From the NCBI GenBank assembly GCA_945874225.1, contig CAMCFT010000005.1, forward strand, positions 76,486 through 140,485: 64,000 nt of DNA, read 5' to 3'. Positions 10,926-46,564 of the stretch are shown here, one piece after another. Below the pieces are notes generated by a model that was not told where the DNA came from, made no database searches, and saw nothing but the letters and a program-made list of their open reading frames with translations. The position numbers were made by a program, and so were the translations under genes. The DNA is from Flavobacterium psychrophilum (GTDB lineage Bacteria; Bacteroidota; Bacteroidia; Flavobacteriales; Flavobacteriaceae). How positions within the stretch are numbered: the first letter of the stretch is position 1; each line of letters opens with the position of its first letter.

Positions 10926-11312
10926 ATGAATCAAAGAGATGTTTTCTTAAAAGAATTTCGTGGAGAAACAATTGGTATTGTAAACACTCAATCATCATTG
11001 GACGAACTGTTTCAAAATGAAGTGCTTCGGCCTATTTTGAAGTTACAAAACGATTTGTTTGTCGCTTCCTTTATTAATCATGTGACGAAAAACAAAATAG
11101 ATTTCAATGCCTATTCAATAGAAAAAAAAATGGCTATGATTGAAAATGCTGTTCAAAAAGACATCAAGTTCAGAAATGCTTTGAAGGGAATGATTATAGG
11201 ATTATTTACTGCCGATGAATATTCGCAATACATAAAAAACTCTTCGAGCCTCAACAAAAGAATGATGGGTATGCTTATCGAAAGGTTAAAAAGTCAAGTG
11301 CAGTTATTTTAA
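10926..11312 (+). CDS. Conserved hypothetical protein (128 aa)
   Basis: Soluble helical protein of 128 residues without signal peptide, membrane segment or recognisable active site. Features seen are a stretch of hydrophobic and acidic residues (about 15-50) and the conserved-looking GMIIGLFTADEYSQY near residue 85. I do not recognise a characterised family. It stands immediately before the esterase that opens the amidoligase island, with a 110-base gap, so a link is possible but not shown. Confidence 0.65.
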   Translation: MNQRDVFLKEFRGETIGIVNTQSSLDELFQNEVLRPILKLQNDLFVASFINHVTKNKIDFNAYSIEKKMAMIENAVQKDIKFRNALKGMIIGLFTADEYSQYIKNSSSLNKRMMGMLIERLKSQVQLF

Positions 11313-11422: not shown

Positions 11423-12136
11423 ATGAAAGAAGAATATTTCAAGTGGTACTCCCCTAACCTGAGTAGAGATATAGAAATGCTCGTTTTCGGTCATTCCGGA
11501 TACCCCGTAATTTTATTTCCTACTTCTATGGGAAGCTTTCATGAAAACAAGGATATGGGCTTGATTGAATCGGCAAAATGGTTTATAGAACAAGGTTTAA
11601 TCCAAATATTTTGCCCTGCAAGTATTGACAAAGACAGCTTTTACAATAAAAATATACATCCCGTTCACCGAATAGAAAATCATACTTGGTACGACAAAAT
11701 GATTTGCCATGAAATCGTCGAAAAAGTAAAAAACAATACTCCTTCCGGAAAAGTTGCCGTTGCCGGTTGCAGTTTTGGAGGTTATCATGCTGCCAATTTT
11801 GCGTTTCGTCATCCTGGTTATGTGAGTCACGTTTTCTCGATGGGCGGAGCTTTTAACATCAAAAGTTTTATGGATGGTTTTCATAATGATGACGTGTTCT
11901 ATAACAATCCTGAAGATTATTTATACGGATTGAATGATTCCGAAATTTGGAATATGGACATTTGTTTAGGAACTTCTAACTGGGATATTTGCTATGATGC
12001 GAATCTAAAATTAAGCCGGGTTTTAAGCGAACGCAATATCCACTATTGGCTTGATATTCGTCAGGATAGAGAACACGATTGGCCGGTTTGGAAAGAAATG
12101 TTTCCGCATTATTTATCAAGAATCAAGTTTTTCTAA
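11423..12136 (+). CDS. Alpha/beta-hydrolase esterase opening the amidoligase cluster
   Basis: Serine hydrolase of 237 residues. The nucleophile elbow is GCSFGGYHAANF, and the likely catalytic His is in EHDWPVW near the end, as in the esterase D/EstA group. No signal peptide is visible from the chosen ATG (11423). The frame also extends 15 codons upstream to a GTG at 11378, but those residues look untranslated. It is followed after 68 bases by an ATP-grasp ligase, then a GCS2 ligase, a glutamine amidotransferase and a second ATP-grasp, all on the same strand. A role in releasing or trimming an ester or amide made by these ligases is inferred from position only. Confidence 0.82.
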   Translation: MKEEYFKWYSPNLSRDIEMLVFGHSGYPVILFPTSMGSFHENKDMGLIESAKWFIEQGLIQIFCPASIDKDSFYNKNIHPVHRIENHTWYDKMICHEIVEKVKNNTPSGKVAVAGCSFGGYHAANFAFRHPGYVSHVFSMGGAFNIKSFMDGFHNDDVFYNNPEDYLYGLNDSEIWNMDICLGTSNWDICYDANLKLSRVLSERNIHYWLDIRQDREHDWPVWKEMFPHYLSRIKFF

Positions 12137-12204
12137 AAGTATTAAGACTAAAAAATAATAAGTTGAAATCGTAGATTCACAAAAACCAAATAAACAATAT
12201 AAAA

Positions 12205-13155
12205 ATGAGTAAAAAAATTGGAATATTATTCGGAATGGAAGACACTTTTCCGCAAGCATTTATAGACAGAGTAAATTCAAAAAACGAAAAAGGAATCATT
12301 GCTGAAGCCGTTTCTATTGATAAAGTAGTTCAAAATAAAGACAGTGAATATGCCGTGATTATTGATAGAATTTCACAAGATGTGCCGTTTTACAGAGCTT
12401 ACTTAAAAAACGCTGCTTTGACGGGAACAAATGTCATCAACAACCCATTTTGGTGGAGTGCTGACGATAAATTTTTCAACAATGCATTGGCAGATACTTT
12501 AGGAGTTCCGTTACCCAACACGGTGATTCTTCCCTCGGCAGAACATCCAACAGATACCACTGGAAAATCTTTCCGTAACTTAAAATATCCAATGGATTGG
12601 CAAGGAATTTTTGATTACATCGGTTTTCCTGCTTATATGAAACCGTATGCAGGTGGCGGTTGGAAAAATGTTTACCGATTAGAAAACAAGGAAGAATTCT
12701 GGGAAAAACATCAGGAAACAGGGCAATTAGTGATGATGTTACAGGAAGAAATTGTTTTTACAGAGTATTTTCGAGTGTATTGTTTGGGTTGTAAAGATGT
12801 TCGAATTATGCAATATGAACCTAGAAATCCGCATCATTTGCGCTACGTGATTGACGGACCTGCGGTTGATAAAAAATTATTGGCCACCGTAAAAGACTAT
12901 ACTTTGAGACTTTGCAAAGGTTTGGGTTATGATTTTAACACCGTTGAATTTGCTGTTCGAGATGGAATTCCTTATGCGATTGATTTTGGCAATCCTGCTC
13001 CAGATGCAGAGTTGACTTCCGTTGGAGCAGAAAATTTTGAATGGGTTGTAGAACATGCTGCAAAAATGGCAATCTCAGCTGCCAAAAAGCAGAAACCTGG
13101 AAAAATGAATTTAACTTGGGGAACATTTATAAAAGATGCCGTTTCTGTTAAATAA
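12205..13155 (+). CDS. ATP-grasp carboxylate-amine ligase (cluster ligase 1)
   Basis: ATP-grasp enzyme of 316 residues, expected to activate a carboxylate as acyl phosphate and join it to an amine. A Rossmann-like N-terminal part (1-110) precedes the ATP-grasp domain. ATP-binding residues are seen in AYMKPYAGGGWKNVY (Lys near 147), an adenine-contact strand (VMMLQEEIVF), and the metal-binding end FNTVEFAVRDGIPYAIDFGNP, where Glu and Asp-Phe-x-Asn match the usual DxN pattern. The next gene, a GCS2-type ligase, starts 14 bases downstream, so the two are co-transcribed. Substrates are unknown. The neighbours suggest stepwise assembly of a small peptide-like product. Confidence 0.85.
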   Translation: MSKKIGILFGMEDTFPQAFIDRVNSKNEKGIIAEAVSIDKVVQNKDSEYAVIIDRISQDVPFYRAYLKNAALTGTNVINNPFWWSADDKFFNNALADTLGVPLPNTVILPSAEHPTDTTGKSFRNLKYPMDWQGIFDYIGFPAYMKPYAGGGWKNVYRLENKEEFWEKHQETGQLVMMLQEEIVFTEYFRVYCLGCKDVRIMQYEPRNPHHLRYVIDGPAVDKKLLATVKDYTLRLCKGLGYDFNTVEFAVRDGIPYAIDFGNPAPDAELTSVGAENFEWVVEHAAKMAISAAKKQKPGKMNLTWGTFIKDAVSVK

Positions 13156-13169
13156 TAATTATAATTATT

Positions 13170-14276
13170 ATGAAAAAATTACCTGTTTTTACACTTGGTG
13201 TTGAAGAAGAATATCAAATTATTGATCCAGTAACTAGAGATTTACGCTCGCATTTATCCAAAATTGTTGATGGAGCCAAAACAATATTAAACGAGCAGGT
13301 CAAAGCCGAAATGCACCAATCTGTGGTTGAAGTTGGAACTAATATTTGTAAAAATGTCCAGGAAGCTGAGGCCGAAATCAAATCTTTAAGAGGTCATATC
13401 GTTGATTTAGCCGATAAACAAGGACTAATTGTAGGTGGTGCGGGAACACATCCTTTTTCAAAATGGCAAGATCAGCCCATCACCGATGATCCTCGTTATC
13501 ACAACATTGTCAACGAGTTGCAAGATGCTGCGCGTTCTAATTTAATTTTCGGAATGCATTGTCACGTTGGAATTGAAAACCGTGAAATTGGCTTGCAAAT
13601 AATGAATCAAGCCTGTTATTTTTTGCCCCATATCTTTGCAATTTCTACTAATTCTCCTTTTTGGGAAGGAAGACAAACTGGTTATAAATCCTTTAGAACC
13701 AAAGTTTTCGATAAGTTTCCCAGAACTGGATTACCAGAATATTTTGATTCAGTTTCTTCCTATGATAATTTTCTGGAAACTTTGGTAAAAACCAATTGTA
13801 TCGATAATCCAAAGAAAATTTGGTGGGATTTGCGCTTACATCCGTTTTATGACACCATTGAATTTCGTATTTGCGATATGTGTTTAACCGTTGATGAAAC
13901 GATGTGTATTGTAGCCATTATTCAAGCAATCGTGGCCAAATTGTATAAATTATCCTTGCACAATATGAGTTTCAATGTCTACAGATTAGCGTTGATAAAA
14001 GAAAATAAATTCCGTGCTGCACGTTATGGAATTGAAGGCCACATGATTGATTTTGGTCTTCAAAAAGAAGTAGAAACTAAGATGCTCATCATCGAATTGC
14101 TTGAATTTGTTGATGATGTTGTGGATGAATTGGGAAGTCGGGAACAAATCAATTACGTTTATGAAATTATGAAAAACGGTACCGGAGCTGACAAACAATT
14201 GGCTGTTTTTGAAAATACAAATGACCTAACCAAGGTTGTTGATTTTATTACTGGAGAATTTACGAAGGGGCTTTAG
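13170..14276 (+). CDS. GCS2-type carboxylate-amine ligase (YbdK/COG2170 family)
   Basis: Ligase of 368 residues in the glutamate-cysteine ligase type 2 family. The family makes amide bonds on glutamate-like substrates using ATP, and E. coli YbdK is a weak gamma-glutamyl-cysteine ligase. Seen motifs are TLGVEEEYQIID at the start (metal- and ATP-binding glutamates), GGAGTHPFSKW, FGMHCHVGI and RLHPFYDTIEFRICD. The length is usual for COG2170. It is between an ATP-grasp and a class I amidotransferase. The true amine acceptor is unknown. The setting argues for a dedicated metabolite rather than glutathione, since no glutathione synthetase of standard type is adjacent. Confidence 0.88.
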   Translation: MKKLPVFTLGVEEEYQIIDPVTRDLRSHLSKIVDGAKTILNEQVKAEMHQSVVEVGTNICKNVQEAEAEIKSLRGHIVDLADKQGLIVGGAGTHPFSKWQDQPITDDPRYHNIVNELQDAARSNLIFGMHCHVGIENREIGLQIMNQACYFLPHIFAISTNSPFWEGRQTGYKSFRTKVFDKFPRTGLPEYFDSVSSYDNFLETLVKTNCIDNPKKIWWDLRLHPFYDTIEFRICDMCLTVDETMCIVAIIQAIVAKLYKLSLHNMSFNVYRLALIKENKFRAARYGIEGHMIDFGLQKEVETKMLIIELLEFVDDVVDELGSREQINYVYEIMKNGTGADKQLAVFENTNDLTKVVDFITGEFTKGL

Positions 14277-14300
14277 ATTTTGGATTGAAGAGTAACGATT

Positions 14301-14332
14301 TTTGATTTCAGATTTTAAAATCAATACCTTTG
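14301..14332 (+). promoter_or_regulatory. Bacteroidota-type promoter for the amidotransferase gene
   Basis: TTTG at 14301-14304 and TACCTTTG at 14325-14332 are separated by 20 bases, a close match to the TTTG/TAnnTTTG consensus of Bacteroidota. The amidotransferase ATG follows 23 bases later, so the second half of the cluster can be expressed on its own. Confidence 0.65.
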
Positions 14333-14355
14333 CAAATTAATTATTAACACCAATA

Positions 14356-15186
14356 ATGAATAATAATACCATAAAAATTGCGGTTTTAGATATGTACAAT
14401 GGCGAACCTAATCAGGGAATGCGCTGTATCATTGATATTATCAACCGTTTCAATCAAATTGTCACCTTTCAAATTTTTGACGTCAGAGGTAAATCAGAAA
14501 TGCCGGATATTAAAAAATTCGATATTTATATCTCGACAGGCGGTCCTGGAAATCCATTGATTGGCGATGGAAATTGGGATACAAAATACTACAATTTCAT
14601 TGACGAATTGACCAAATGGAATACAGAAAACACTGTAAAAAAACATGTTTTATTCATTTGTCATTCGTTTCAAATGGCTTGCAAACACTTTGGCTTAGCC
14701 GAAATCACCAAGCGACACGATACCTCTTTTGGAGTTATGACCATTCACAAAACTAAAGAAGGTCTTGAAGATCCTCTTTTTGACGGTCTTGGAGATCCAT
14801 TTTATGCTATTGATTCCAGAGATTATCAGGTGGTACAGCCAAAATTGAGTGTTTTTAAGAAAAAAGGTGCTAAAATTATTTCTTTGGAAAAAATCAGGGA
14901 TTATGTTCAATATGAAAGAGCGATTATGGCGGTTCGTTTTTCAGACTATTTTGTGGGAACTCAATTTCATCCAGAAGCTGACCCAATCAGTTTTATTTCC
15001 AATTTGAGAAATATAGAATCCAAAGAAAAAATCAAAAAAATGAAGGGCAATACCAAATTCCGGAATATGCTCGAAGATTTATTGGACGATGATAAAATTT
15101 ACAGAACCAATGAAACTTTGATTCCTAATTTCCTTCGAATTGCCATCAACGATTTGATGAAAACCAAGAAAACGCTGTCGAATTAA
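14356..15186 (+). CDS. Class I glutamine amidotransferase (GMP-synthase-like domain)
   Basis: Single-domain type 1 glutamine amidotransferase of 276 residues, expected to release ammonia from glutamine and pass it to a partner ligase. The triad is complete: Cys102 in FICHSFQMAC (replacing the usual GICLGHQ) and His205 and Glu207 in GTQFHPEAD. An oxyanion-type GGPGNP segment is at 62-67. About 65 residues beyond the triad are specific to this type. No synthase domain is fused, so ammonia must go to a separate protein, most simply one of the neighbouring ATP-grasp or GCS2 enzymes. It has its own promoter at 14301-14332. Confidence 0.87.
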   Translation: MNNNTIKIAVLDMYNGEPNQGMRCIIDIINRFNQIVTFQIFDVRGKSEMPDIKKFDIYISTGGPGNPLIGDGNWDTKYYNFIDELTKWNTENTVKKHVLFICHSFQMACKHFGLAEITKRHDTSFGVMTIHKTKEGLEDPLFDGLGDPFYAIDSRDYQVVQPKLSVFKKKGAKIISLEKIRDYVQYERAIMAVRFSDYFVGTQFHPEADPISFISNLRNIESKEKIKKMKGNTKFRNMLEDLLDDDKIYRTNETLIPNFLRIAINDLMKTKKTLSN

Positions 15187-15210
15187 AAGGTATTTAGAAT
15201 TATATAAATG

Positions 15211-15343
15211 TCCGCTAAGAGGACTTCATTTTAGAACTCAAACCTTTATAAAATTTTGCCACGAATTACACGAATTGTCACTAATTTTTTAAAAATTAAA
15301 ACAGGAATTCGTGGAAATTCGTGTAATTCGTGGCTGAAAAATT
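15211..15343. repeat. Dispersed palindromic repeat family A, copy 1
   Basis: The core arms are GCCACGAATTACACGAATT at 15258-15276 and AATTCGTGTAATTCGTGGC ending at 15334. About 45 bases upstream (from GCTAAGAGGACTTCATTTT) are shared with copy 3 at 46431-46564. Copy 2 is at 21211-21285. It sits between two cluster genes read in the same direction. Confidence 0.85.
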
Positions 15344-15441
15344 AATTAGTATTAGTAAAGAATAGTTTTTTAGAATTAAGTATCAAGAAACACTTGAATT
15401 CAACACACTATTCTTAATACTTTTATCTTAATATATTTAAA

Positions 15442-16632
15442 ATGATTGAAAAATACAGACAACTTTTTAATTCCCAATTTACTGACAAAAAGTATCAGGA
15501 ATTCAAGGACGATATTGCTTCTGATTTTGATTATGCACCCACTTTTCGAATTGGAGAAACTCCTTTTTTTATCTCCAATGAGTTAAAAGCACAAATGCTG
15601 GAAGGTTGCGCTGACATCATAAAATTGATTCAACAGAAAGACTTTAAAAAGCTTACAAATAAATCATTAGAACTCAATCATAATGTTCCCAACGAAGACG
15701 AACACACCACTTTCTTAGCCATTGATTTTGGAATTTGCGAAGAAAATGGAGCAGTTGTTCCCAAATTAATTGAAGTTCAAGGATTTCCTTCTTTGTATAA
15801 TTACCAGATTAATTTATACGAAAAATTCAAGAATCATTATCCGTTTCTGAAGGATTTGACGCCATTTATCAATGACATAACACCTAAGGAATATCTCGAA
15901 ACACTGGAAGATGTAATTTGCAACAATCATCCAAAAGAAAATGTAATTCTGTTGGAAATTGAGCCCGAAAATCAAAATACTAAAATCGATTTTTATTATT
16001 GTCGAAGAGACCTTGGCATACCGATAGTTTGTGTCACCGATATAATAAAAAAAGGCAAGCAACTTTTCTACAAAAATGAAAACGGCCAAGAAATACGTGT
16101 CAAACGAATCTATAATCGGGTGATTTTTGACGAATTGGATTTGCGAACCGATTTGAAACTGAATTTCCATTTCTCAGAAGATCTTGACGTGGAATGGGCC
16201 GGACATCCTAACTGGTTTTTCAGAATCAGCAAGTTTATTTTGCCTTTTTTGAAAGGGAAGTATTTTATAGAAACTACTTTGTTAAGCGACTTAAAACAAA
16301 TTCCAGAAGATTTAGAAAATTATGTATTGAAACCTTTGTTTTCTTTCTCAGGTTCCGGCGTAATATTTCACGTAAAAAAGGAAGATATTGAAGCTGTGGT
16401 CGAAAAAGAACTATACATTCTCCAGAAAAAGGTAAATTATATTCCCATCGTGCAATCTCCCGACGGAAAAGTAAAAGCCGAAGTTCGTGTACTTTGTGTC
16501 TGGAAAAAAGAAGATGCCGCTCCTACTCTACTCTGCAACTTGGTGCGATTGAGCCGTGGCGAAATGATTGGCGTGAAATTCAATAAAGATAAAGATTGGG
16601 TTGGTGGAACTTTGGGTTTGTTTGAGAGATAG
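15442..16632 (+). CDS. ATP-grasp-like ligase of unusual type (cluster ligase 2)
   Basis: Soluble protein of 396 residues with features of an ATP-grasp fold late in the chain: YVLKPLFSFSGSGVIF (about 292-307) for phosphate binding, AEVRVLCVW, then LLCNLVRLSRG as the acidic/Asn end. The N-terminal half has AIDFGICEENGAVVPKLIEVQGFPS (about 90-115) in place of a normal pre-ATP-grasp domain, which could point to a permuted glutathionylspermidine-synthase-like layout. It closes the plus-strand cluster and abuts the convergent M1 peptidase gene. A second ligase beside ligase 1 suggests two successive couplings. The assignment to ATP-grasp is by motif only. Confidence 0.68.
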   Translation: MIEKYRQLFNSQFTDKKYQEFKDDIASDFDYAPTFRIGETPFFISNELKAQMLEGCADIIKLIQQKDFKKLTNKSLELNHNVPNEDEHTTFLAIDFGICEENGAVVPKLIEVQGFPSLYNYQINLYEKFKNHYPFLKDLTPFINDITPKEYLETLEDVICNNHPKENVILLEIEPENQNTKIDFYYCRRDLGIPIVCVTDIIKKGKQLFYKNENGQEIRVKRIYNRVIFDELDLRTDLKLNFHFSEDLDVEWAGHPNWFFRISKFILPFLKGKYFIETTLLSDLKQIPEDLENYVLKPLFSFSGSGVIFHVKKEDIEAVVEKELYILQKKVNYIPIVQSPDGKVKAEVRVLCVWKKEDAAPTLLCNLVRLSRGEMIGVKFNKDKDWVGGTLGLFER

Positions 16633-16648
16633 AAATCTCTAATTATAA

Positions 16649-18301
16649 TCACTTACCCTTCAATACATTCACATAAAAATTCTTATCCACTTCCACTTTC
16701 AAATCTTTCGCAGTTTGTGGCAAAATAGTCCATTCTGCTTGAGGTTTCAGCCATTGTTCTTTTCCGTTCAAAGTTACTTTTACAGGAATATTGAAACCGG
16801 GAACACAATTGTTCCATCGATATGAAAGGATATTATCTTTGAATTTATATTCAAAAGTCGGGATTCTGATATCTCTCAAATATTGGTCAAAAAACGGAGC
16901 TAAATCGAGTCCAACGTTTTTGCTTAAATAATCCTCGATTTGTTTTGTCGTAACGGTTTGGTGGTAAAATGTGCTGTTCAATCCTCTTAAAATTGTTCTC
17001 CATTTTTCGTCGTCATTCAAGATTTGGCGCAGCGTATGCAACATATTTCCGCCTTTATTGTACATATCGCCAGAACCTTCGTTGTTTACATCGTAATGTC
17101 CAATAATTGGTTTGTCATTTTCGATACTATTTCTTAAACCCCTAACATATTCAGCACCAGCTTCTTTTCCATAGTAATATTCTACAAAAAGACTTTCAGA
17201 ATAGTTGGTAAAACTCTCGTGAATCCACATATCGGCAATGTCTTTATAGGTGATATTATTGGCAAACCATTCGTGCCCCGATTCATGGATAATGATAAAA
17301 TCGAATTTTAATCCCCAACCCGTTCCACTTAAATCTGTTCCTCGATAACCGTTTTTGAAACCATTTCCATAAGTAACACTGCTTTGATGTTCCATTCCTA
17401 AATATGGAGCTTCAACAAGCTTGTAACTGTCTTCATAAAAAGGATATGGACCAAACCAATGTTCGAAAGCTTTCAGCATTCGTGACGCATCCTTGAATTG
17501 GATTTTGGCTTTTTCCAAATTATCTCTCAACACATAATATTCGCAATCTAAATCGCCTTTTTCTCCAGAGAAAACTTCGGAAAAAGAAACATAATCGCCT
17601 ATGTTTATATTTACGCCATAATTATTGATGGGATTTGAAACATACCAATTGAATGTTCTAGTTCCATCTTTCATATCAATAACACTTTGCAAACGGCCAT
17701 TGGAAACATCCGTCAAATTTTTGGGAACATTCACACTGATGAGCATATCGTCCACTTCGTCATACATATGATCTTTGTTGGGCCACCAAACACTTGCGCC
17801 CAATCCTTGACAGGTCGAAGCGATAAACGGTTTTCCATTAGTGTCTTTGCTCCAGGTAATTCCTCCATCCCAAGGCGGACGAACGGCGATTTTAGGTTTA
17901 CCACCATAAAAAACAGTGAGTTCTTTTATTTCATTAACATTTTGCGGTGCAACCAAATCAATATAAAAGACATTGCCGTCTCTTTGATATTTTAATTCCT
18001 TGCCATCTTGCGTTACTTTGCTAATTTTTAAAGGTTCTTGAAGATCAATTTGCATTCGGTTATAAGAATTCAAAACCTTGTATCGAATGGTATTCGAACC
18101 CGAAATTGTGCTATCACTGGGATTTACCTTGATGTCAAGATGGTAATATTTCACGTCCCACCAAGCTCTTTCCTTAGTAATGCTTCCTCGCAAAGTATCC
18201 TGATGTGTGAAAACCGTTTCTGATTTGCCCATAAGTCCCTGAGCATTTGTAGTATTAGTGATAAGAAATGCAATAAAAACAATGCTTACATATTTGTTCA
18301 T
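16649..18301 (-). CDS. M1-family zinc aminopeptidase, exported
   Basis: Metallo-aminopeptidase of 550 residues. The zinc site is HESGHEWFANN (HExxH), with a downstream Glu in DMWIHESFTNY, and the substrate-anchoring GAMEN motif appears as LGMEHQSSVTYGN. The chosen ATG at 18301 gives a signal peptide (MNKYVSIVFIAFLITNTTNA). The frame extends 10 codons further but those residues precede the signal. It is shorter than E. coli PepN, as usual for periplasmic M1 enzymes of Bacteroidota. It would trim N-terminal residues from imported peptides. It is convergent with the amidoligase cluster and lies beside another ATP-grasp and an M17 peptidase. Confidence 0.9.
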   Translation of the reverse strand: MNKYVSIVFIAFLITNTTNAQGLMGKSETVFTHQDTLRGSITKERAWWDVKYYHLDIKVNPSDSTISGSNTIRYKVLNSYNRMQIDLQEPLKISKVTQDGKELKYQRDGNVFYIDLVAPQNVNEIKELTVFYGGKPKIAVRPPWDGGITWSKDTNGKPFIASTCQGLGASVWWPNKDHMYDEVDDMLISVNVPKNLTDVSNGRLQSVIDMKDGTRTFNWYVSNPINNYGVNINIGDYVSFSEVFSGEKGDLDCEYYVLRDNLEKAKIQFKDASRMLKAFEHWFGPYPFYEDSYKLVEAPYLGMEHQSSVTYGNGFKNGYRGTDLSGTGWGLKFDFIIIHESGHEWFANNITYKDIADMWIHESFTNYSESLFVEYYYGKEAGAEYVRGLRNSIENDKPIIGHYDVNNEGSGDMYNKGGNMLHTLRQILNDDEKWRTILRGLNSTFYHQTVTTKQIEDYLSKNVGLDLAPFFDQYLRDIRIPTFEYKFKDNILSYRWNNCVPGFNIPVKVTLNGKEQWLKPQAEWTILPQTAKDLKVEVDKNFYVNVLKGK

Positions 18302-18370
18302 GGATTTAAAATAAAAAGTTATTTTTAGCAAGTAGATAAAATTTAATTATAATTTTTTTGTCTGAAATTT

Positions 18371-18440
18371 GTCATTTCGACGAAGGAGAAATCTCATTTG
18401 TTGCTCTCTTTATGTGATTTCTCCTGTTGGTCGAAATGAC
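18371..18440. repeat. Dispersed inverted repeat family D (GTCATTTCGAC...)
   Basis: The arms GTCATTTCGACGAAGGAGAA and TTCTCCTGTTGGTCGAAATGAC flank a short spacer and form a long imperfect hairpin in the gap between the M1 peptidase and ATP-grasp genes. A shorter relative may be at 138-163. Confidence 0.75.
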
Positions 18441-18453
18441 AAAACACAACCTA

Positions 18454-19668
18454 TTAATGCAACTTCTCGACTTTTTTTTGTTCAACAACGGCAGCAAAAT
18501 CAGCAGTTAAGCGATTGGCATAATCGTTCAATAATTCTAAAACGCGTTCTCTCGAATCCGATTTTACAATCAGTCCGGCGTGATAATCCAAAGGAACCCT
18601 GAAACAAACTTCCGGATCCGAAAATGAAGACAAATCAGGATGTTGAAACTTTGACAAAGTCAATACAATTCCGGCATATTTTTTTTTACCTTTTGGCAAA
18701 GTGTATTTAGTTCCTTTTACCAATGCATCTTCAATTGCTGCCCATTCTTTCCAAAGGTTGATGTTCGAAGCTTCGGCAACCATTTCAGCGAGATGTGCTC
18801 CACCCACTCGGGAAGAAGTTTCCAGAAAATAGATTTTTCCATCATCCTTACATTTAATATATTCTGAATGTGCTGCTCCGTGTTTCAATCCAAATCCTTT
18901 TATAACCTGTTCATTTACGGCTTTAATTGCTTTGTCATCATCCGAATCATACTCGATATTGGCACTTCTGAAAATACCGCCACCTTGCGAAATTTCCATT
19001 GGAGTCGTCAGATATTTAGAGGTAATGCTAAAGAGTATTTTACTATTTAAAACCAAACTATCGCAATGGTACACATCGCCGGGGCGAAATTGTTCCAATA
19101 AATATTTGAAGCGATTATTCCCCATTTCGTTGATGTGAATCCACAAACTTTCCTTATCAAACACTTTTATAATCCCAGAAGCAGAAGCCTCAGATCGTGG
19201 TTTCAAAACCCAAGGAGCAGAAATTGTGTCAGCAAACGTATTGATGTCGTGATCATTAAATAACGAGCAGAAATTAGGATTTGAAATTCCGCAACTTTTG
19301 GCTCTCATTCGCATTGCCAATTTATCCCTGAAATAACGACCTGTTGTTTGTCCCATTCCGTCAATCCGAAGATTTTCGCGCAGATAGGTTGCTTTTTCCA
19401 CATCATAATCGTCTAATGATACGATGGCATCAATTTTATTGGATTTCATCAAATTGCCAACGCCCAGCAACAAATGCTCTAAATTCCAATCTATATCTTG
19501 ACCCGCCATATAGAAAACTTCGTCTATGTGGTCAAAAGGCCAAGGTTTATCTCTCAATTTTTCGCTAGTTATCAGATAGACTTTGTTGCCCAAATTTTTT
19601 AAATGGATTAAAAAATCAGCGCCTTTGAAATAATTTGAGATACAAATGAAAGTTTTAGAGTTTTCCAT
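18454..19668 (-). CDS. ATP-grasp ligase, carbamoyl-phosphate-synthase/biotin-carboxylase-like
   Basis: Third ATP-grasp protein of the region, 404 residues. A Rossmann-like N-domain (1-110, opening KTFICISNYFKGADFLIHL) precedes ATP-binding motifs WVLKPRSEASASGIIKV (about 152-168) and YFLETSSRVGGAHLAEM (about 277-293), the latter matching the E-x-x-x-R-x-G-G end seen in amino-acid ligases of the BacD/carnosine-synthase type. A C-terminal domain (about 310-404) follows. It probably joins a carboxylate to an amino acid or amine. Being between two aminopeptidases and opposite the amidoligase cluster makes a shared peptide pathway plausible but unproven. Confidence 0.82.
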   Translation of the reverse strand: MENSKTFICISNYFKGADFLIHLKNLGNKVYLITSEKLRDKPWPFDHIDEVFYMAGQDIDWNLEHLLLGVGNLMKSNKIDAIVSLDDYDVEKATYLRENLRIDGMGQTTGRYFRDKLAMRMRAKSCGISNPNFCSLFNDHDINTFADTISAPWVLKPRSEASASGIIKVFDKESLWIHINEMGNNRFKYLLEQFRPGDVYHCDSLVLNSKILFSITSKYLTTPMEISQGGGIFRSANIEYDSDDDKAIKAVNEQVIKGFGLKHGAAHSEYIKCKDDGKIYFLETSSRVGGAHLAEMVAEASNINLWKEWAAIEDALVKGTKYTLPKGKKKYAGIVLTLSKFQHPDLSSFSDPEVCFRVPLDYHAGLIVKSDSRERVLELLNDYANRLTADFAAVVEQKKVEKLH

Positions 19669-19700
19669 AAAATATATTTTTAACGTTCTTTAATTCCCGT

Positions 19701-21143
19701 TTAGGGGTTAGTGGTTAAATTTTCAATGAATTTAGTCAATAAATGAACACCATACGCCGTTGCGTGTTTGCTTTTAGCAAATTCATCATCACCAAAAGCA
19801 ACTCCAGCAATATCAAGATGCGCCCAAGCTTTGTGTTCTTCGGTGAAATATTCCAAGAATTTAGCTGCTGAAATGGCTCCGGCAACTGGTTTTCCGCTGT
19901 AATTTTTCACGTCGGCAATATCGCTTTCTATGTCTTGCTTGTAGCAATCCCAAAGTGGCAATTGCCATAATCGTTCTCCAATGGCATCACCTGACTGTTG
20001 CAATTTCTTCGAAATAGCTTCATTGTTGGTAAATAATGCAGCACAATCGTATCCAAAAGTCCCCACGGCACTTCCTGTCAATGTTGCAATATCAACAATA
20101 AATTCGGGTTTGAAATTCTTGATTAAATAGGACAAACCATCGGCCAAAATCAATCTTCCTTCGGCATCAGTGTCAATAATTTCTATGGAATGTCCGCTAT
20201 AGCTTTGGATAACATCACTAGGATAAAACGATTTTGCATCTACCGAATTTTCGGCGCAAGGCACAATCGCAGTCACTTTTACAGGCAATTTTAAATCCGC
20301 AATCAGCTGCATTGCTCCAAAAACTGCAGCGCCACCCGCCATATCACATTTCATATGCAACATTCCGGAAGTTTTTATATTCAATCCGCCTGTGTCAAAA
20401 GTGATTCCTTTACCCACCAAACCTACATGCTTTGTTTTAGCATTCGCATTTTCGGGAACATATTTCATAATGACAAATTGAGGCTCTTCGTCGCTTCCTT
20501 TTCCAACAGATAAAAAAGCTTCTAATCCTGCTTTTTTAGAAGCTTCGAAACCTAAAGTCTCCACCTCAAAACCGAATTTTTCCCCGCTTTCGTTAGCCCA
20601 ATTGGACAAGTATTTAGGTGTGACCACATTTGGAGGTAAATCGACTAAATGTAGTATTTCGAGTTGAGCTTTGGCAATTTTTATTGCTTTAGAAACTGTT
20701 TCAGAAGTGTCTGTTTTGGAGATAAGAGATAGTTCAAAATCATCATTCAAAAACGGATGTTTCTCCGTTTTCTTGAAATGACCCAAATCGTAAGTTCCTA
20801 AATATAGTCCAGAAATAGAAGCTTCAACTTGTTCTGAAGTAAATTGTTCCGGTATAACCAATGCCACATTCGAACTAAATGATTCTTTTTGTTTTGATGC
20901 AATTCTTCGGAAAGTAGTTTTCAATGATTTATAATCGATGTCTTTTCCTAACCCAATAAAAATATGGGTGCAATCGTATTTTTCGACCAAATAATGTGTG
21001 TCTTTTTTTCCATAAAACACTTTTGAATGAACAGAAACTCCGTGGAATTCAATTGGAACCAGACTTTTAACATAAGTTTCGAAAACAGGAATTAATAATG
21101 TTCCTGAAAATCCTTCTAGATTTTGAATTGTATTTGTTTTCAT
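19701..21143 (-). CDS. pepA: Leucyl aminopeptidase, M17 family
   Basis: Cytosolic aminopeptidase of 480 residues from the chosen ATG at 21143, which is the usual length. Metal-binding and catalytic segments are GKGITFDTGGLNIKTSG and the family signature NTDAEGRLILADGLSY. It would cleave N-terminal residues from di- and oligopeptides as a hexamer using two metal ions. The frame extends 24 codons upstream into repeat A2, and those residues are not credible. The upstream region between this start and the esterase stop holds the repeat. Confidence 0.93.
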   Translation of the reverse strand: MKTNTIQNLEGFSGTLLIPVFETYVKSLVPIEFHGVSVHSKVFYGKKDTHYLVEKYDCTHIFIGLGKDIDYKSLKTTFRRIASKQKESFSSNVALVIPEQFTSEQVEASISGLYLGTYDLGHFKKTEKHPFLNDDFELSLISKTDTSETVSKAIKIAKAQLEILHLVDLPPNVVTPKYLSNWANESGEKFGFEVETLGFEASKKAGLEAFLSVGKGSDEEPQFVIMKYVPENANAKTKHVGLVGKGITFDTGGLNIKTSGMLHMKCDMAGGAAVFGAMQLIADLKLPVKVTAIVPCAENSVDAKSFYPSDVIQSYSGHSIEIIDTDAEGRLILADGLSYLIKNFKPEFIVDIATLTGSAVGTFGYDCAALFTNNEAISKKLQQSGDAIGERLWQLPLWDCYKQDIESDIADVKNYSGKPVAGAISAAKFLEYFTEEHKAWAHLDIAGVAFGDDEFAKSKHATAYGVHLLTKFIENLTTNP

Positions 21144-21210
21144 TATTACTTTTATAATTTTTAGTTTTACCTCGAATCTATTGGGCAAATTAGTTTTAAT
21201 AAAAAAATAA

Positions 21211-21285
21211 GCCACGAATTACACGAATTGCCACAAATTTCTAAATTATTAAAAATAATTCGTGAAAATTCGTGCAATTCGTGGC
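21211..21285. repeat. Dispersed palindromic repeat family A, copy 2
   Basis: The arms GCCACGAATTACACGAATT and AATTCGTGCAATTCGTGGC enclose an AT-rich centre. This is the short form, without the upstream flank seen in copies 1 and 3. It lies in the gap upstream of pepA. Confidence 0.85.
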
Positions 21286-21331
21286 TAAAAAATTGTGTTA
21301 ACCATAATTTTAGACGCGATAAATTTTGTCT

Positions 21332-22468
21332 TTACTGATTTGTGTTAAAAAAAAGCCATTCTATTGCCTTTGGAAATTCATCACTCCAATAGGTTTCATT
21401 GTGCTTTCCTTTCATATTGATACTTAAATTAATATTCATTTTGTCTTTCACAAATTCGCTAGCAATTATATTTTTCTTAAAAAGCTGCACGTGTTCAATC
21501 ATTGTTTCACTTTCATCTCCTCCTGCATATAAATAAATCTTGGTGTCATCTGAAGTTGGTGAATCTGATTCAATTTTTAGCTTTGGAACAACCCATAAAG
21601 AAGGCGAAAAAATCATTAATTTTCCATACACTTCCGGATTGCGCAATCCGCTAAAAATACTGACTAATCCACCCATCGAACTTCCTCCTATTCCCGTGAA
21701 TTCACGTTCTGTTTTGGTTCTGAAATTGCTATCTACGAAAGGCTTCAAAGTTTCGGTTACAAAGCGAATGTATTTTTTGCCTTGCCCTTTTCCAAGCACC
21801 GTTTTGCCCACATTGTATTCCTTTATTCTGTCTTTTTCGGCGTGTTCTATGGCAATAATTATAATTTTTCCAATTTTATATTCTGACATTACAGCCAGTT
21901 TTTTATCAATTTCCCAATTGCCGTATTCCGCCTCTTCATTGAATAAATTCTGCGCATCCTGCAAATACATTACCGGATATCTTTCGTTCGTGGAATCATA
22001 ATCGTGTGGCAGCAATGCCCATACTTTTCTGGTTTTATTGAGCTGTGGAATTTCAAATTCATCCGAAATCAATAATACTTGAGGCAAAAAAGATTGCTTG
22101 AACGGCAACCAATTTCTTCTCCATCGTGCTACATATTCATTTTGAATTCCGCTGTTCTTTTTGGTCGAACGGTTTTCAGTACGGTTTCCGTTAGCGTCAA
22201 TTTCAACTTCGCTCCAATCTCCTTTGGTGAATTTATATAAAAGCTCTTCTGGGTAATCAAAATCGTTTGGAAATTCATATTGGTACAAATTATTTCCGAT
22301 TCTTTCCATCAAAAAGTCTTTGTCCTGTGTTTTCCAATTGTTGAAATTACCAGAAATATAGACTGGTCGAGCATCATCTTCATCTGTTTTCAAAAGGATT
22401 TGGAATCCTTTTTTTATTGTATTTAATTCTTGCGTAATCATAGTATTCTCTGAATTCATCTCTTGCAT
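21332..22468 (-). CDS. Esterase with N-terminal carbohydrate-binding-like domain
   Basis: Protein of 378 residues with two parts. Residues about 15-110 look like an early-set/CBM48-type beta domain (VYISGNFNNWKTQDKDF). Residues about 140-378 form an esterase D/enterochelin-esterase-like alpha/beta hydrolase with the nucleophile in GIGGSSMGGLVSI and a likely catalytic His in KGKHNETYW near the end. No signal peptide is seen. The ATG at 22459 (fourth residue) is an alternative start. Such enzymes cleave esters of peptidic siderophores or sugars. Its place beside the peptidases and ligases suggests it serves the same pathway, which is an inference. Confidence 0.82.
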   Translation of the reverse strand: MQEMNSENTMITQELNTIKKGFQILLKTDEDDARPVYISGNFNNWKTQDKDFLMERIGNNLYQYEFPNDFDYPEELLYKFTKGDWSEVEIDANGNRTENRSTKKNSGIQNEYVARWRRNWLPFKQSFLPQVLLISDEFEIPQLNKTRKVWALLPHDYDSTNERYPVMYLQDAQNLFNEEAEYGNWEIDKKLAVMSEYKIGKIIIIAIEHAEKDRIKEYNVGKTVLGKGQGKKYIRFVTETLKPFVDSNFRTKTEREFTGIGGSSMGGLVSIFSGLRNPEVYGKLMIFSPSLWVVPKLKIESDSPTSDDTKIYLYAGGDESETMIEHVQLFKKNIIASEFVKDKMNINLSINMKGKHNETYWSDEFPKAIEWLFFNTNQ

Positions 22469-46430: not shown

Positions 46431-46564
46431 AGCTAAGCGGACTAAATTTTCAGGACACAAACGCTTTATGAAAATTTTGCCACGAATTACACGAATTTGC
46501 ACAAATTTTTTTAAAATTAAAACAAGAATTCGTGCCAATTCGTGTAATTCGTGTAATTCGTGGC
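46431..46564. repeat. Dispersed palindromic repeat family A, copy 3
   Basis: This copy shares the GCTAAGCGGACT flank with copy 1 (15211-15343) and has the arms GCCACGAATTACACGAATT and AATTCGTGTAATTCGTGGC, with one extra GTGTAATTC unit in the right arm. It lies between the amylase and ygiD genes. Confidence 0.85.

Follow-up and report, generated by a model that had tools for sequence, protein, structure and literature searches.

A widespread amidoligase and peptidase gene cluster of Bacteroidota, with a candidate role in making a small gamma-glutamyl-type peptide

What does a bacterium make with ligases of several folds encoded beside peptidases and esterases? The question is raised by a window of 64,000 nucleotides from Flavobacterium psychrophilum (the whole stretch of DNA analysed here, positions 76,486 to 140,485 of contig CAMCFT010000005.1, assembly GCA_945874225.1), in which an earlier note had described nine open reading frames (ORFs) between positions 11423 and 22468. 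All nine were found where it had placed them. On the plus strand lie genes for a small esterase (estA), an ATP-grasp ligase (graspA), a YbdK-type ligase (gcs2), a stand-alone protein of the class I glutamine amidotransferase (GAT) fold (gat) and a second ATP-grasp protein (graspB); on the minus strand are those for an M1 peptidase (family PF01433), a third ATP-grasp ligase (graspC), an M17 aminopeptidase and a second esterase (estB). The note had suggested a ribosome-independent peptide or amide pathway, an idea that finds its support in family and fold, not in chemistry. We put at about one in two the probability that the island encodes a dedicated, ribosome-independent route to a small oligopeptide of gamma-glutamyl type (or to a peptide-amine conjugate), with turnover added in its clustered form.

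Is this grouping an accident of one genome? A graspA alignment was run against named genomes and the best 80 of 568 matches were kept, a choice that biases the sample to close relatives; gene order in these 80 loci was read by tblastn with 14 window proteins. In 75 of the 80, estA, graspA, gcs2, gat and graspB follow one another in one order on one strand, in genera that include Flavobacterium, Belliella, Algoriphagus, Indibacter, Aquiflexum, Dyadobacter, Pedobacter, Roseivirga, Gelidibacter and Polaribacter, which bears out conserved order in Bacteroidota, the check that the earlier note had proposed. Three of the exceptions sit at contig ends (L004, L065, L075); in L053 estA and gcs2, and in L078 estA and gat, were not found by this search. 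An extra gene separates estA from graspA in L063 and L073, and in L063 another separates gat from graspB. The closest named relatives of graspA in this sample are from Flavobacterium, those from Belliella and Aquiflexum are 85–88% identical to it, and throughout L049–L080 the order is intact at 41–53% identity for gat and 45–51% for graspB. Bacteroidota names are carried by 78 of the 80 loci, the others being L018, labelled Bifidobacterium breve, and L078, labelled Chlorobiota. L018 (CALPIE020000163.1) and L004 (JAEMQE010000194.1, a Lentimicrobium metagenome-assembled genome) hold Flavobacterium-like clusters with graspA identities of 94% and 98%, and are probably mis-binned contigs.

A larger set comprises 171 sequences, that is, 170 loci plus the window, and not 171 genomes: L153–L170 and L196 for the most part show a further stretch, with graspB, of a genome already in the set, L195 comes from the same genome as L052, and L081–L110 were excluded as short copies. 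ORFs of at least 80 residues were called mechanically as the longest non-overlapping ones. In 86 of the 171 sequences, which hold 85 distinct graspA proteins, no other gene separates the five, and the median gaps between them in relatives are 32, 27, 41.5 and 11 bases. The core was not seen in L121, L125, L144 and L159 despite a search match there, which leaves 167 loci for counting. The upstream neighbours mscS (24/167) and acot (21/167) are confined to Flavobacterium-like loci and act as a built-in control for the conservation of order.

Do the two strands belong together? The earlier note had joined them by adjacency, and the link is upheld by L171 and L172, in which estB, M17, graspC, estA, graspA, gcs2, gat and graspB form an eight-gene run on a single strand without room for another gene. 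In L137, L139 and L140, graspA, a circularly permuted ATP-grasp gene, gat, a PF00756 esterase gene and graspC share one strand (Pfam families were assigned on L140 only, PF14403 for the permuted ATP-grasp), and graspC lies beside the core on the same strand in L075, L076, L137, L139, L140, L171 and L172. The permuted protein, of about 450 residues, stands directly before gat, in the gcs2 slot, in L137, L139, L140, L142, L143, L146, L147 and L148; a profile comparison of graspB with this protein (CP_ATPgrasp_2) gave a probability of 3% and an E value of 0.015, too poor a match to be used. A different esterase gene, divergent and adjoining estA, is present in 23 loci (PF00756 for the L059 copy). 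The M1 peptidase, which the note had counted in, was dropped as a part: within the stretches retrieved, 9/167 loci have an M1-like gene, and 7 of these 9 are Flavobacterium-like.

Are the genes kept together when they are not neighbours? Independently of the loci, 198 Bacteroidota genomes were drawn evenly and surveyed for graspA, graspB, gcs2, gat and graspC. Weak matches were removed before counting (graspA 1 of 73, graspB 8 of 68, gat 1 of 51, graspC 3 of 46 and gcs2 2 of 62, the last in G014 and G177 with E values of 5e-64 and 2e-82 and identities of 32% and 39%), leaving 72 genomes with graspA, 60 with graspB, 60 with gcs2, 50 with gat and 43 with graspC. Joint presence was seen in 58 genomes for graspA with graspB and in 56 for graspB with gcs2, and graspC (43 genomes) never occurs without graspA. 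Among the 54 genomes with graspA, graspB and gcs2, the steps from graspA to gcs2 and from gcs2 to graspB are shorter than 6 kb in 32 and no such step occurs in 15, where the genes lie more than 6 kb apart or on different contigs of a draft assembly; in 5 of these 15, graspA and gcs2 are 10–26 kb apart on the same contig. Such retention of all three where they are not close to one another points to a common function, in counts that ignore phylogeny. The scattering in relatives by which the note would have recognised a chance grouping is thus absent from most sampled lineages and present in part, in those 15 genomes.

What could the enzymes do? The gcs2 product (13170–14276) scores 200.7 bits with PF04107, 519.7 bits with the carboxylate-amine ligase model NF010039 (cut-off 371) and 289.3 bits with TIGR02050 (cut-off 176.4), scores by which it is assigned to the YbdK / carboxylate-amine ligase family. 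It would couple the gamma-carboxyl of glutamate (or a similar acid) to an amine. GraspB (15442–16632) would then extend the carboxyl end with an amino acid or amine, in the manner of glutathione, glutathionylspermidine and YgiC-type ligases. The earlier note had called it unusual; it has no Pfam match at E 0.001, and in the predicted structure the glutathionylspermidine-synthetase fold spans its full length, so that it belongs with the glutathione synthetase / glutathionylspermidine synthetase / YgiC fold and is not an orphan oddity. PF03738 is matched at E 0.05 or better by 15/36 graspB members (best 5.2e-5), and we take graspB as probably working like GSP_synth / YgiC without classing it as a PF03738 member. 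Amino-acid-adding glutathione synthetases reach a nearly equal fold score, so the fold does not choose between an amino acid and a polyamine.

Further residues would be attached by graspA and, where present, graspC. GraspA (12205–13155), a predicted RimK/LysX-fold ligase, has no Pfam match and stays below the curated cut-off of the RimK family TIGR00768 (rimK_fam, 28.1 bits against 143.4). The R2K clade of ATP-grasp enzymes is marked by two conserved RAGNYA lysines, the second replacing the linker lysine. In 30/30 graspA members K146 is kept, and position 154 is K in 25 and R in 5, which fits, but K89, which we take to stand in the linker-lysine place, is present in 30/30 as well; PF18299 (R2K) is weakly matched by 14/30, a hint on which graspA was not placed in the clade, and the window graspA matches no R2K model. 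Several non-Flavobacterium members (L049, L050, L055, L177 and others) carry Lys/Ala-rich tails of up to about 150 residues, with an HC2 histone-like model in 2/30 and a terminal helix-hairpin-helix in one of the 30 (L055); the window graspA is tail-less. GraspC (18454–19668, minus strand) matches ATP-grasp_4 at 27.4 bits, barely above the cut-off of 27, and is weakly like D-Ala-D-Ala ligase and BacD.

How would the product be turned over? The gat protein (14356–15186) matches PF00117 at 34.3 bits (cut-off 22.8) and keeps the triad C102, H205 and E207 in 24/24 members, which by sequence makes it a class I glutamine amidotransferase. The gat slot, between gcs2 and graspB, is filled in L130 and L179 by an M29 peptidase gene (named by Pfam in L130, by clustering in L179), and no gat match exists in the genomes of these loci (G065 and G103), which in our view makes gamma-glutamyl hydrolysis likelier for gat than ammonia production. 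The amidotransferase of the earlier note stands as a fold, and its ammonia-making role is, we infer, the less likely one. Gat would cleave the gamma-glutamyl bond, M17 (19701–21143, minus strand, leucyl-aminopeptidase type, PF00883), or M29 in the two loci, would degrade the remaining peptide, and the esterases would remove acyl or (thio)ester adducts. EstA (11423–12136) has a weak alpha/beta hydrolase/Esterase match, and its candidate catalytic residues S117, D188, D211 and H218 are unchanged in 23/23 aligned members; estB (21332–22468, minus strand) is a PF00756 esterase. From the ORF list, ATG starts at 11423 (estA), 21143 (M17) and about 18301 (M1) are likelier than the longer GTG/TTG ORFs. 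Searches of solved structures with single sequences gave nothing useful for graspA, graspB, estA or gat.

Several points weigh against this reading. No result fixes any substrate, and the gamma-glutamyl-cysteine activity of YbdK-type ligases is weak. GraspB falls under the PF03738 GSP_synth cut-off (13.5 against 29.3 bits), and the class I GAT fold of gat, which also gives weak MetA matches, may make ammonia or, as in MetA, transfer acyl groups. In 15 of 54 genomes graspA, graspB and gcs2 lie apart. Other genes are missing: gat from 20 of the 54, among them every one of the 15 unlinked ones (it was found in 34 of the other 39), and graspC from 25; in the locus set graspC lies at most two genes from the core in just 22/167. 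Turnover by gat and a fourth ligase are therefore not obligatory; the set that cannot be spared seems to consist of graspA, graspB and gcs2, with gat, graspC and the hydrolases as usual additions in the clustered form.

Does a known system look like this? Class I GAT is also the fold of the plant peptidase GGP1, and S-formylglutathione hydrolase belongs to the PF00756 esterases. Four steps of plant cytosolic glutathione synthesis and turnover (glutamate-cysteine ligase, glutathione synthetase, gamma-glutamyl peptidase and Cys-Gly dipeptidase) share families or folds with the island, namely GCS2, the glutathione-synthetase fold, the class I GAT fold and M17, to which an esterase can be added. 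Unlike the plant system, the island in its clustered form is one bacterial operon, has one or two extra ATP-grasp ligases and occurs in genomes that almost all have bshC as well (196 of the 198). Passages of PMC7852106 describe an M17 aminopeptidase as the Cys-Gly dipeptidase of plant glutathione breakdown, and passages of PMC10243980 describe glutathione degradation by the gamma-glutamyl peptidases GGP1 and GGP3. E. coli YgiC/YjfC and glutathionylspermidine synthetase (PF03738) are 12–13% identical to graspB, below the Pfam cut-off, and unlike them graspB is clustered with gcs2 and a RimK-fold ligase. A glutamyl ligase is paired with a GAT-like hydrolase in ergothioneine synthesis (EgtA/EgtC) and in the Puu pathway (PuuA/PuuD); none of the other enzymes of these pathways is among the nine island genes.

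Might the product be a thiol, or carry a polyamine? The bacillithiol gene bshC (PF10079) is above cut-off in all but G119 (with graspA) and G166 (without), so a substitute for bacillithiol as the main thiol was ruled out. A peptide-polyamine conjugate, in which graspB would couple homospermidine, or else spermidine, to a gamma-glutamyl peptide by analogy with glutathionylspermidine, is possible though rather doubtful. A gene of the homospermidine-synthase family (PF01916) or nspC occurs in 59/60 graspB genomes against 107/138 others (p 5e-5, with ancestry left out of account), which makes a polyamine partner plausible; a carboxyspermidine route was set aside, with nspC above cut-off in just 8/198 genomes. 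Passages of PMC8570120 describe two Flavobacterium type strains whose main polyamine is homospermidine, which that paper calls consistent with the genus. A broader and tentative picture, which we hold to be less likely than not, is that many environmental Bacteroidota make a widespread gamma-glutamyl peptide, possibly homospermidine-conjugated, with three or four linked amidoligases, and recycle it by its own peptidase and GAT-fold enzyme when the genes are clustered, as a second 'glutathione-like' metabolite beside bacillithiol.

It is unlikely that the island tags proteins or peptides, with graspA, through its RimK-like fold, adding residues to a protein and the peptidases trimming the tag: no conserved carrier gene was seen among the 45 largest neighbour clusters (ORFs shorter than 80 residues were not called, and a Pup-sized substrate would escape), gcs2 scores as YbdK-type, and no R2K model recognises the window graspA. 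An amidated metabolite, for which the GAT would free ammonia from glutamine and one ligase form a carboxamide, has about the same low standing: the conserved Cys-His-Glu triad and the PF00117 match fit it, the metallopeptidase in the gat slot of two gat-less genomes speaks against it, and the 20 genomes without gat weaken any obligatory role for that protein. Could unrelated housekeeping enzymes have come together by chance? The 15 unlinked genomes would suit this, but the order kept at the low identities of L049–L080, the joint presence that persists even without closeness and the eight-gene run in two genomes make it very improbable.

If the gamma-glutamyl peptide pathway is real, much of a major environmental phylum (graspA was found in 72 of the 198 sampled genomes) has small-molecule chemistry to which no product is assigned, and a function is gained for two ATP-grasp families that no Pfam model recognises in their window members. 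The pathway would then be open to direct testing by metabolomics of mutants lacking single genes, and its ligases, which differ in fold, could be assayed singly for their order and substrates. We rate the island as a candidate multi-amidoligase metabolite pathway, of a type already known. Iyer et al. in 2009 reportedly catalogued amidoligase neighbourhoods, with ATP-grasp and glutamine-synthetase-like ligases linked with peptidases, and these may include the present cluster. Among the papers listed from the open-licence PMC literature, no title or abstract start describes it, nor do passages of PMC4431377, PMC2922099, PMC2588565, PMC11036162 and PMC11237479, and we do not claim it to be unpublished.

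Is the plus-strand run one transcript? The earlier note had placed an internal promoter at 14301, and the site at 14301–14332, in the gcs2–gat gap on the plus strand, fits the Bacteroidota-type pattern TTTG-N20-TANNTTTG exactly. The -7 box, TANNTTTG, lies at -60 to +8 of gat in 28/32 loci with gat identity of at least 70%, in 18/21 at 55–70% and in 11/60 below 55% (in the gap proper 28/32, 19/21 and 7/60), and the same interval holds it before gcs2 in 0/116, graspA in 11/146, estA in 11/102 and graspB in 5/128. This conservation in the closer relatives supports an internal promoter. The pattern as a whole is not above chance in the window (8 against a mean of 5.01 expected; at least 8 in 16 of 100 shuffles), and the TTTG element at -33 is not conserved, the full pattern being upstream of gat in 6/114 (0 in one shuffle), so that the promoter is upheld in its -7 box and not in its -33 element.

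Some smaller features complete the picture. A tblastn search found no plasmid copies of graspA or graspB. An anti-phage defence system was set aside, with 0 PADLOC matches at E 1e-4 for nine proteins, the eight parts of the island and a protein of 128 residues encoded upstream of estA (10926–11312). The latter has no Pfam match, and its relatives fall in a group of 28 clustered sequences that, so far as the tables reach, come without exception from Flavobacterium-like loci. Between gat and graspB (15259–15333) stands the palindromic word CCACGAATTACACGAATT with its reverse complement, repeated at 46480–46563, and a single arm lies between M17 and estB (21212–21229); it looks like a small, dispersed repetitive palindrome.
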